Shown: positions 1 to 55,062 of the stretch, one piece after another
How the letters are laid out: each line of letters opens with the position of its first letter
Numbering within the stretch: position 1 is the first letter of the stretch
Source: Alphaproteobacteria bacterium
GTDB lineage: Bacteria; Pseudomonadota; Alphaproteobacteria; Acetobacterales; Acetobacteraceae
NCBI GenBank assembly: GCA_016869715.1
Contig: VGDM01000004.1
Location: 62,001 to 126,000, forward strand
Length of the DNA stretch: 64,000 nucleotides
Direction of reading: 5' to 3'
Notes under the pieces: model-generated
Seen by the model: only the letters and a program-made list of their open reading frames with translations
Told to the model about the DNA's origin: nothing
The model's database searches: none
Translations under genes and position numbers: made by a program

Positions 1-174
1 CAGAAAGGCGCAGGGTACGCCATGCAGCCGCCCGGTCAGGATTTCATCCGAAGGATCACCCCAAGGGGTACGAACCTTCACCCAGTGGCGATCTTCCAGC
101 CCCTCCATGTCATAAAGCCCAGAACCGCCGATCAGGCCGATCATAGGTTGGATGCTGGGTTGAGTCTCGGTCAT
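1..174 (-). CDS. mtnP: S-methyl-5'-thioadenosine phosphorylase, 5' part only
   Basis: Only the first 58 codons lie in the window; the gene continues past the left edge. Read on the minus strand the protein opens MTETQPSIQP and then carries IGLIGGSGLYDMEGLED, the phosphate-binding start of the MTA phosphorylase/purine nucleoside phosphorylase fold, followed by a WGDPSDEI segment. The family cleaves methylthioadenosine to adenine and methylthioribose-1-phosphate in methionine salvage. Identity rests on the N-terminus alone. The start ATG is the first in frame; a small lipoprotein gene diverges upstream. Confidence 0.85.
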   Translation of the reverse strand, partial: MTETQPSIQPMIGLIGGSGLYDMEGLEDRHWVKVRTPWGDPSDEILTGRLHGVPCAFL

Positions 175-2815: not shown

Positions 2816-2907
2816 ACTGAATCCTCCAATTGGGATCATCGCAGCACGAAGCGGGGCGATGCGCCATGGTGCTTGACGGAACGCGGCGCACAGGCAGCAT
2901 GGGCGGC
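2816..2907. promoter_or_regulatory. divergent intergenic region ggt / mmgE-prpD
   Basis: These 92 bases separate two divergent genes and must hold both promoters if the chosen starts are right. The ggt Shine-Dalgarno GGAGGA (minus strand) lies at its left end. I could not single out convincing -35/-10 pairs. Confidence 0.35.
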
Positions 2908-4275
2908 ATGACAGATAGTGCTGAAACCATTTTGCTCGGCCATGTTTTGGTAACGCCGGAGGCCGCCATTCCCGAAGCAGCGTGGGATGCGGCGCGCATC
3001 TTTCTGCTGGATGGCCTCGCGGTCGGGGTCGCGGGCATGGCGCATGCGGCGCGCGCCAGTTTGCTGGCGGCGGCACGCGGCTGGGGCGCTGGGGAGGAAG
3101 CGCGCCTCTGGGGTGATGGCGCGCTGCTGCCGGCGTCTCAGGCAGCCTTCGTGAATGCGTTTCAGGCGCATGCGCTGGAATTTGACGCCATCCATGAAGC
3201 CGCCGTGGTGCATGCCATGACGCCCACCGTGTCTGCCGCCTTGGCCGAGGCGGAACGGCAAAGCGGCTTGGGCCAGACGGTTTCGGGTGCGCGCTTCATG
3301 GCGGCGGTGATCCTGGGGCTTGATCTCGCTTGCACCATTGGCGCGGCAGCACGAGGCCCGATGCGCTTCTTCCGGCCCGCAACGGCGGGGATGTTTGGCG
3401 CTTATGGCGCGGTGGCGCGGCTGCGCGGGTTTGACCTCGCCACGGCATCGGCCGGTGCGGGGCTTTTGCTCGGGCAGCTGCCGGGGACCATGCAGGCGCA
3501 TGCGGAAGGGTCCATGGCGCTGCCGGTGCAAATGGGATTCGCTGCCATGGCAGGGCTGCGCGCGGCGGATTTGGCGGCAGCGGGCGCGGCTGGCCCGGCG
3601 CAATGGCTGACCGGTCCCTTTGGCTTTCTGAAGCTGACGGAACCGAAACATGATTTGGCGCCGGGCTTGGCCGCACTTGGCAGCAATTGGCAGGTGACGC
3701 GGCTCGCGCATAAACCCTTTCCCTCGGGCAGGTTGACGCATCCTGCGATTGATGGCGCGCAGCGGTTGATGGCGGCGCATGGGATCGCTGCGGGCGACGT
3801 TGCGGCGGTGCGGCTTTATTTGCCACCGCTTGCGATGCGTCTGGTGGGTCGGCCCATCAAGCCTGATCTGACCGGCAATTACGTGCGGCTCTGCCTGCCC
3901 TATGTGGTGGCGCGCACGCTGCTTTCGGGCAGTGTTGGGCTTGGTGATTTTTCCGACGCCTTGCTGCGCGATCCGGCGACGCATGCGCTGGCGGCGCGCG
4001 TTACCTTGCTCGGCGATGGCACTACCGATGAAAATGCCGTGGTGCCGCAGCGTGTGGAAATCACCTTGCGTGACGGGAAAACGCTGGATCAGCACGTGGA
4101 AGCCGCCTTGGGAAGCCCAGAAAACCCTCTGCCGCGTGCGGCGCAGATTGCCAAGGTCAGCGCTTGTTTCGCCGGTATTCTGCCCGAGGATCGCGCGGAT
4201 GTCTTGATCCGCGCGATTGAGGCGCTGCATGCGGCGCCGGATGCAGCATCCTTGGGTGCGCTGCTCCGCGGCTAG
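2908..4275 (+). CDS. MmgE/PrpD family protein
   Basis: This 455-aa protein belongs to the MmgE/PrpD family (2-methylcitrate dehydratase and iminodisuccinate epimerase relatives). Recognisable features are the early LDGLAVGVAGM segment, the FDAIHEAAVVHAMTPTVSAA region and the KPFPSGRLTHPAIDG motif. Substrate cannot be read from sequence; without prpB/prpC nearby, a methylcitrate role is unsupported. The start at MTDSAET is preferred over upstream ATGs (2830, 2866, 2899) because family similarity starts there. Its TAG stop lies in the terminal CTAG of a dispersed repeat, so the last codons may have been altered by insertion. Confidence 0.85.
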   Translation: MTDSAETILLGHVLVTPEAAIPEAAWDAARIFLLDGLAVGVAGMAHAARASLLAAARGWGAGEEARLWGDGALLPASQAAFVNAFQAHALEFDAIHEAAVVHAMTPTVSAALAEAERQSGLGQTVSGARFMAAVILGLDLACTIGAAARGPMRFFRPATAGMFGAYGAVARLRGFDLATASAGAGLLLGQLPGTMQAHAEGSMALPVQMGFAAMAGLRAADLAAAGAAGPAQWLTGPFGFLKLTEPKHDLAPGLAALGSNWQVTRLAHKPFPSGRLTHPAIDGAQRLMAAHGIAAGDVAAVRLYLPPLAMRLVGRPIKPDLTGNYVRLCLPYVVARTLLSGSVGLGDFSDALLRDPATHALAARVTLLGDGTTDENAVVPQRVEITLRDGKTLDQHVEAALGSPENPLPRAAQIAKVSACFAGILPEDRADVLIRAIEALHAAPDAASLGALLRG

Positions 4276-4378
4276 AGCGTGTTGCGTTCACACGTGTTCA
4301 CGCCACATGCTCTACCCCGTTGTTTTTCGGGTATCTTCACACGTTCAGATTTTCCATCTGAACGTGATCTGCTCTAGA
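4272..4378 (+). repeat. 107-bp dispersed repeat, copy 1, CTAG-ended
   Basis: This copy begins CTAGAGCGTGTTGCGTTCAC and ends GAACGTGATCTGCTCTAGA, giving 7-bp terminal inverted repeats CTAGAGC/GCTCTAG. A second copy in the opposite orientation is at 33286-33392; both are 107 bp and most positions match. It also has an internal inverted repeat (GTTCAGAT/ATCTGAAC). It encodes no protein. The terminal CTAGs supply the stop codons of both flanking convergent genes. Confidence 0.85.
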
Positions 4379-5462
4379 TCGCGCTATTCACACCCAAGCG
4401 CTTCGCCGTTTGCAGAATATTCGCCCAAGTATCGGGCGGCAGCGGCACGCCATCAGCCAGCCGTTCCGCGCGGCGTGTCGCTTCCGGCTCACCGGGCAGC
4501 AGCACCGGCGCGTCAGGATTGGCCGGGCGCGTTTCCGAAACCCAAGCGGCATAAGCCAGGCCCATGCGTTCAAACTCTGCCTGGGTGCCGAAATGCTTGG
4601 GCGAGATGAAAATCGACAGCATGCCATTGGCAATACGAGAACGTTCCGGAACCCGGCCGCTGGTCCCGCCCGCGGTCAGGCAGCCCGCCAGCATTTCACA
4701 CATGAAGGCGAGGCCCGACCCCTTGTGCTCACCAAAGGCGCGAATGGCACCTGTGCCTTTCGAAACATCGCGCGGGCCGAGCGTGTCATAAGGCCCGTAT
4801 AGCGTGTGCGGGTCAGTCGAAAGCCGGCCATCGGCTTCAATCAGCGCACCTTGCGGCAGCGCCTTGCCGCCTGATGACGCCACCAGCACCTTGCCCTCCG
4901 CCACAACCGATGTCGCGAAATCCAGCAGAATGGGCCGGCCCGGCAAGGGTGCACCGATCGAAACCGGATTGGTCGAAAAGCGCCGTTCCACCCCGCCAAA
5001 GGGGGCGACAAGGGTCGAGCCCGCGACATTGACGAAATGGATCGAAATCAAGCCCTGTTCCATCGCCTGTTCGGCATAGGCACCCACGCGGCCAATATGC
5101 CCGGCATTACGAAGCGCTGTGATGCAAACACCATTTTTGACCGCGCGCTTGATGCCAAAATCCACCGCCTGGGGTGCCACTGTCTGCCCAAAACCCCATT
5201 TGCCATCAATCACCGCAAACGCGCCGCCATCCGTCACCACATCGGCGGTCTGGCCCTTCAGCACATAGCCCGCTTCCAGCCATTCCACGTAACGCGGCAC
5301 GCGCACCACGCCGTGGCTGTCATGCCCGGCGAGATTGGCATCCACCAAATGGCGGCTGATGCGGCGCGATTCCGGGCCATCACAACCGGCGGCCTGAAAA
5401 ACATTGACGACCAGGCCATCCAGCGCTTCGGCATTGATCATCTCATAGGGGGTGGTGCCCAT
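4374..5462 (-). CDS. Ldh family oxidoreductase (malate/L-lactate dehydrogenase type 2)
   Basis: This 362-aa protein belongs to the Ldh_2/YlbC/ComC family of NAD(P)-dependent 2-hydroxyacid dehydrogenases, unrelated to the classical LDH fold. Diagnostic segments are DANLAGHDSHGVVRVPRY near residue 45, the cofactor-binding FSTNPVSIGAP and DFATSVVAEGKV, and GEHKGSGLAFMCEML. Substrates in the family include malate, L-lactate, ureidoglycolate, sulfolactate and sugar-acid derivatives. It is the last gene of the ABC-transporter/SDR run, 55 bases after the SDR, which favours oxidation of an imported polyol or sugar acid. Its TAG stop is provided by the end of the dispersed repeat. Confidence 0.85.
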   Translation of the reverse strand: MGTTPYEMINAEALDGLVVNVFQAAGCDGPESRRISRHLVDANLAGHDSHGVVRVPRYVEWLEAGYVLKGQTADVVTDGGAFAVIDGKWGFGQTVAPQAVDFGIKRAVKNGVCITALRNAGHIGRVGAYAEQAMEQGLISIHFVNVAGSTLVAPFGGVERRFSTNPVSIGAPLPGRPILLDFATSVVAEGKVLVASSGGKALPQGALIEADGRLSTDPHTLYGPYDTLGPRDVSKGTGAIRAFGEHKGSGLAFMCEMLAGCLTAGGTSGRVPERSRIANGMLSIFISPKHFGTQAEFERMGLAYAAWVSETRPANPDAPVLLPGEPEATRRAERLADGVPLPPDTWANILQTAKRLGVNSAI

Positions 5463-33285: not shown

Positions 33286-33392
33286 TTTACAGCAGTGCCC
33301 GTTCAGATCGAAAATCTGCACGTGTGAAGATGGTCGAAAAACAACGAGGTAGAGTGGGTGGCGTGAACACACGTGAACGCAACACGCTCTAG
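33286..33392 (-). repeat. 107-bp dispersed repeat, copy 2, inverted relative to copy 1
   Basis: Read on the minus strand this starts CTAGAGCGTGTTGCGTTCAC and runs to GAACGGGCACTGCTGTAAA. It has the same length and overall sequence as copy 1 at 4272-4378, with scattered substitutions; the far terminal repeat has degenerated (CTGTAAA for CTCTAGA). It sits between pgsA and the proline-rich lipoprotein gene, about 25 bases before the lipoprotein start. Confidence 0.85.
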
Positions 33393-54897: not shown

Positions 54898-55062
54898 AAA
54901 AAGGGTGCGGAGCCACATTGGCCGCTGGCGTCTCATCCTCCCAAGGCCTGCGTCAGCAGGTGGGCGCCAGATACCCGAACCACGGCCCGGACAGAGCCAG
55001 CTCCCGGAGGATGTGCATTGGCCCCGGGGATGAATTGCCTGGCGCACCTAGCAGCCCCGCGA
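54898..55062 (-). ncRNA. ssrS: candidate 6S RNA
   Basis: This non-coding stretch lies between zapA and fau on their strand, the position of ssrS in many proteobacteria. Read on the minus strand, GCGG and GGCTGCTAGG near the 5' end pair with CCAGCGGCC and CCGC near the 3' end. A large, mostly unpaired centre follows, and an inner arm is closed by CATCCTCC/GGAGGATG. The RNA would end ACCCTTTTT. Predicted length is about 160 nt. This matches 6S RNA topology, but I could not run a covariance model. Confidence 0.6.

Follow-up and report, generated by a model that had tools for sequence, protein, structure and literature searches.

A dispersed two-palindrome repeat at the stop codons of convergent prpD and ldh genes in an Acetobacteraceae genome

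Within the window (the whole 64,000-nucleotide stretch of DNA that was analysed), a gene of the MmgE/PrpD family (hereafter, prpD) and a convergent gene of the malate/L-lactate dehydrogenase (Ldh_2) family (hereafter, ldh) end at the two sides of one copy of a dispersed repeat. An earlier note on this DNA had placed the two stop codons at the ends of the repeat, which is correct (TAG at 4273–4275 on the plus strand, and the complement of 4374–4376), and had gone on to propose that the repeat supplied them. The features referred to below are as follows.

2899–4275, plus strand: prpD (PF03972, PF19305); an upstream start at 2830 is possible
4273–4376, plus strand: copy 1 of the repeat, TA to TA (family alignment; empty site in the sister genome G024)
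4273–4274: left TA duplicate, bases 1–2 of the prpD stop codon (empty sites)
4273–4275, plus strand: prpD TAG stop codon, target TA plus the first G of the element
4273–4314, plus strand: palindrome A (42 bp), with TAGAGC arm, inner stem and GCTCTA arm (folding, pair counts)
4275–4374, plus strand: copy 1 element proper, GAGC...GCTC, between the TAs at 4273–4274 and 4375–4376
4340–4366, plus strand: palindrome B, inner stem CACGTTCAGAT/ATCTGAACGTG (folding, pair counts)
4374–4376, minus strand: ldh TAG stop codon, target TA plus the terminal G of the element on the minus strand
4375–4376: right TA duplicate, bases 1–2 (minus strand) of the ldh stop codon (empty sites)
4374–5462, minus strand: ldh (PF02615), convergent with prpD
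33288–33391, minus strand: copy 2, inverted, between same-direction genes; empty in sister genomes

Copies, folding and spread of the repeat

The two copies in the window (4272–4378 and, inverted, 33286–33392) aligned without gaps across all 107 columns, and about 40 copies are present in the same genome, so that the dispersed 107-bp repeat is real. Its extent required a correction: the 107-bp copies hold, but the element proper lies between the two TAs, at 4275–4374 in copy 1, and copy 2 runs from 33288 to 33391 (minus strand). A 26-base motif of the repeat matched three times in the window, compared to no match in 100 shuffles. Copy 2 lies 24 bp past the TGA-ended CDP-alcohol phosphatidyltransferase gene and before the next start, touches no stop codon, and has a decayed B end (GCTGTA). 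The genomic copies, some of them partial, are distributed over many contigs in both orientations and are mostly 76–93% identical to copy 1. At ~104 bp, without a protein and in ~40 copies, the repeat has the properties by which MITEs are recognized (<200 bp, protein-less, multi-copy).

The repeat is non-coding and consists of two imperfect palindromes, spanning ~104 bp from TA to TA, with the family consensus TAGAGC(A/G)TGTTGCGTTCACATGGGTTCACGCAACCCGCTCTA-CCTCGTTGTTTTTCGAGCATCTTCACACGTTCAGATTTTCCATCTGAACGTGATCTGCTCTA (aligned copies from the genome of the window), which also contains an outer stem of palindrome B (GAGCA/TGCTC). Its terminal inverted repeats (TAGAGCATGTTGCGTTCACATGG vs TAGAGCAGATCACGTTCAGATGG) agree in ~18 of 23 bases when the consensus is compared by eye. 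The palindromes also occur apart: one partial copy is palindrome A alone (L040), and two others (L033, L037) hold palindrome B and begin on their left close to where A and B meet. The fold of copy 1 is much more stable than that of shuffled sequence (z −6.4), whereas copy 2, a decayed copy, showed no significant gain in folding over shuffled sequence (z −0.5 and −1.5). Pair counts over 20 members gave 84% standard pairs, 44 double-sided changed cells (shuffled mean: 13.8) and a covariation score of 0.208 (vs 0.102), well over every slid register; for the outer stem of palindrome B, which shifts between families and has no single register, these counts are conservative. The paired changes point to a conserved two-hairpin shape and not to a function, because the alignment mixes related sequences. 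Identity with a known RNA family was rejected, with 6S RNA as the only match within the window (54906–55060, minus strand; Rfam RF00013, 65.1 bits), and so was a phage origin, the repeat being without a match in phages.

Further copies in this and other Acetobacteraceae genomes, which the earlier note had asked after, were found in 30 of 35 genomes of the genus, many with at least 20 scored copies and one sister genome (G022) with a higher copy number, and in a few other genera. The palindrome-A core (at most three mismatches) was present in 8 of 150 members of the family Acetobacteraceae, one of which had ~170 strand matches, and in those genera palindrome A is conserved, whereas palindrome B often has a different sequence, yet folds. 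An exact pattern scan of named genomes gave MAGs labelled Roseomonas sp., Asaia bogorensis, uncultured Rhodospirillales and Alphaproteobacteria (labels as deposited). A single insertion is common to five sister-species loci (L084, L089, L097, L104 and L119), in the same stop codon, and some copies are therefore old.

Empty sites and the target of insertion

To obtain empty sites, prpD orthologues were taken from relatives, and the joined flanks of nine copies from the genome of the window were searched in eight sister genomes. In the sister genome G024, prpD reads ...GCC TAG ATCGCG..., and ldh ends on the same CTAG on the opposite strand; at the corresponding prpD–ldh junction of the window, CTAG-AGC...GCT-CTAG stands where G024 has a single CTAG. 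The insertion site was therefore this CTAG, and both stop codons are older than the element, contrary to the idea that the element supplied them. The ends of the element do read TAG from either side, as had been noticed. Both genes encode complete domains (MmgE_PrpD and Ldh_2, Pfam), hence neither protein is truncated.

The other loci revealed single-TA empty sites, with the TA duplicated on insertion, and TGA sites as exceptions. Copy 2 has gapless single-TA empty sites in four sister genomes (G021, G027, G028 and G019), and further copies correspond to empty CTAA (L002, in G031), CTTAACC (L078, in seven sister genomes), CTAACC (L048) and TAGG (L047, whose filled site has a right end since decayed to TC), the last three from a second set of sites in sister species. 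For L007 (L007:1500–1604), the empty site is CTGA and not CTAR in at least four relatives, and for L084 it is TGA in comparison to some relatives; both keep TG at the right junction, which is not expected from strict TA duplication. In these cases, either the element can bring the left TA with it, or a change of the stop codon took place at about the time when the element inserted.

Target preferences were counted at the 81 sites whose GCTC end is intact. A pyrimidine (C or T) precedes the left TA in 73 of these, and a purine (A or G) follows the right TA in 76; the left TA is retained in 78 copies and the right TA in about 62, an imbalance that also agrees poorly with strict TA duplication. 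Tandem copies have one TA in common. The target is the TA within YTAR, most often CTAG, and a TA is usually left on each side. A 4-bp CTAG duplication was rejected: the left site is YTAG regardless of the right side, which reads TAA or TAG, and the duplication is therefore TA and not CTAG. A G precedes the left TAG in only two of the 81 copies.

On this basis, we consider it likely that the repeat is a MITE inserting at TA in YTAR, silent as copy 1 at a shared CTAG, moved in trans by an IS630/Tc1-type transposase and tolerated at 3′ ends; direct evidence covers the repeat family, its empty sites and target motif, and the surrounding genes, whereas the mover and the accumulation through tolerance are inferred. 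Copy 1 entered a CTAG in which the stop codons of prpD and the convergent ldh already overlapped; the duplicated TA, together with the G at each end of the element, yielded TAG for each gene and made the insertion silent. More generally, given the YTAR target, the site usually held TAA or TAG beforehand, and the element sets just the third base to G.

Gene context and the question of function

Genes around the copies were called with a small, home-made, hexamer-based caller trained on the fetched loci. The neighbouring genes are convergent for 74 of the 135 copies, tandem for 41 and divergent for 5; the other 15 are at contig edges. After removal of the elements and thinning of related sites, 109 sites remained: 43 (39%) in a stop codon (seven of them in the stops of both genes), 56 intergenic and 10 in sequence called as coding, probably wrongly in some cases. 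Judged against the remaining YTAR sites of these loci, occupancy is highest between convergent genes (double stops: 54% [7/13]; convergent stops: 40%; other convergent sites: 29%) and lower elsewhere (tandem stops: 15%; tandem intergenic: 8%; divergent: 3%; coding: 2%), rates that are relative and not genome-wide, because the loci were picked for holding a copy. Convergent sites were enriched about ninefold over other intergenic sites (odds ratio 9.1, P = 2e-17), and stop codons exceeded intergenic sites within either convergent or tandem contexts with an odds ratio of about 1.9 (each P about 0.09). The main effect is therefore the position at the 3′ end, and the stop codon itself adds little. 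With 43 of the 109 sites in stop codons and the convergent enrichment, the distribution with respect to gene ends is non-random, as the earlier note had anticipated.

This enrichment fits tolerance together with a target motif, YTAR, in which TAA and TAG are contained whichever strand is read; the data do not support a need for the repeat at gene ends. A selected function at convergent 3′ ends (as a stop codon, a bidirectional terminator or a protection of mRNA 3′ ends) would account for the strong enrichment between convergent genes, the stable hairpins of copy 1 and the near-equal number of stops at the two ends of the element (23 vs 27). However, the same sites lack the element in sister genomes with their stop codons intact, copy 1 has no intrinsic-terminator pattern, copy 2 folds not significantly better than shuffled sequence, and the same convergent bias of RUP and IS elements has been read as tolerance (PMC3049150). 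We therefore regard such a function as unlikely, and the suggestion that the element is selected at convergent ends found no support, the orthologous sites being empty in sister species; its other half, in which convergent 3′ ends tolerate a mobile element that is non-autonomous, is supported. If this reading is correct, the repeat would have built up at 3′ ends through the tolerance of insertions there, TAA and TAG stops included.

Candidate movers and comparable elements

In the genome of the window, a search for an IS with the same ends returned none that carries the complete terminal sequence of the repeat: matches to the ends lie almost all inside copies of the repeat, and the rest are weak, with two mismatches. 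IS630-family (DDE_3) matches occur in 14 of the 19 genomes examined, mostly as fragments. Elements of this family in G026 and G021 have the ends TA-GAGCAAGCTGCTTTTT and TA-GGGCATGCTTCTTTTA (variants in G021) and occupy CTAG and TTAA sites, and a third, in G024, has the ends TA-GAGCGAGATGACGTTTGGG; all are TAGAGC-like, but the likeness to the repeat is confined to the outer 10–14 bases and the inner bases differ. Of such elements with TAGAGC-like ends in sister genomes, L305:984–2028 (at TTAA) and L293:184–1229 (at CTAG) are possible relatives of the mover. The IS630 element of G140 (L294) was rejected as a parent, its ends (GTGTCCTG...) being unrelated. Because members of the IS630 family insert at TA with duplication of the TA, and a preference of IS630 for CTAG has been cited (PMC2170065), the TAGAGC-like ends make an IS630-type transposase our best guess for the predicted mover, which would act in trans.

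An IS110-family transposase gene (Transposase_20; L024:1600–2740, on contig C22 of the genome of the window) adjoins the B end of a copy, and in several loci from different species (L128, L057, L064, L067, L068, L077 and L091) the same flank joins the repeat at an identical base (GATCTGCT|TGTCTTATGAC), as if the repeat were a recurrent target of IS110-type elements.

Two other movers were weighed. In the IS5/IS427 subgroup, GAGC-like ends and TA-type target duplications are known, so that a transposase of this type, instead of IS630, could have moved an element with such ends and a duplicated TA. It is for IS630, however, that a CTAG/TA preference has been documented (PMC2170065), and IS630-family elements with GAGC-like ends exist in sister genomes, which makes an IS5/IS427-type mover improbable. 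Also improbable is a REP/REPIN-like element moved by a RAYT (HUH, IS200/IS605-type) transposase, with end hairpins as single-stranded substrates and no true target duplication: the two near-end hairpins kept through paired changes between genera, the TAG at the element ends, the asymmetry of the TAs (left constant, right variable) and the TGA empty sites would suit it, but the ends read YTAG and not GTAG, the two ends are related as imperfect inverted repeats, and a Y1 transposase (PF01797) matched in one genome of the genus (77% complete) and was missing from the other 34 of 35, for which reason it was rejected as the mover.

The same difference applies to GTAG-tagged REPs with RAYT transposases (PMC3733652), which, like the repeat, are palindromic, multi-copy and intergenic: the tag here is not GTAG, and the RAYT gene is essentially missing in repeat-bearing genomes. 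Correia/NEMIS elements of Neisseria (PMC2229807) share a ~107-bp form, TA termini, target duplication and terminal inverted repeats, but have another sequence and host, and fusion of their 107-bp form into reading frames is common. The RUP element of Streptococcus pneumoniae (107 bp, TA ends and target, with IS630-Spn1 as the proposed mover and enrichment between convergent genes; PMC2229807, PMC3049150) is alike in length, TA ends, TA target, lack of coding, folding and enrichment between convergent genes. It differs in that no sequence relation is claimed, the repeat here has two separate palindromes, a YTAR target and a frequent placement in stop codons, and no parent IS with matching full ends was found here. 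Both RUP and the Correia elements behave in the manner that we propose for the repeat.

In layout and taxon, the closest element is RIME1, the rhizobial intergenic mosaic element of Osteras et al. (1995), which is reportedly ~108 bp long, repeated and intergenic, with two large palindromes; we compared it by description only, and palindrome B is not alike. To our knowledge, RIMEs have been described as confined to Rhizobiaceae. A Sinorhizobium repeat of similar layout (palindrome A with AGAGC...GCTCTA, a T-rich spacer and palindrome B), which also occurs in NGR234 plasmid b and S. meliloti pB, is detectably similar in sequence by BLAST with the family consensus. A class-wide survey for RIME identity, with weak sampling, returned matches in the genome of the window only. 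The closest known kinds are RUP-type MITEs and rhizobial RIMEs.

We found no report of stop-codon rebuilding in the open-licence literature, which is not proof of novelty. Acetobacteraceae have two-palindrome repeats that resemble rhizobial RIMEs, and the target of these repeats is defined by their empty sites. Whichever strand is read, the target motif includes two of the three stop codons, and a duplicated TA with a terminal G rebuilds a stop; this provides a mechanical reason for the accumulation of small TA-targeting repeats at gene ends. Tentatively, the repeat may be a stop-codon-neutral transposon, in which a TAA or TAG hit on either strand becomes TAG, and this neutrality may have shaped its persistence, with CTAG overlaps of convergent genes as the safest harbour. 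If true, the principle of neutrality could extend to other TA-targeting bacterial MITEs.
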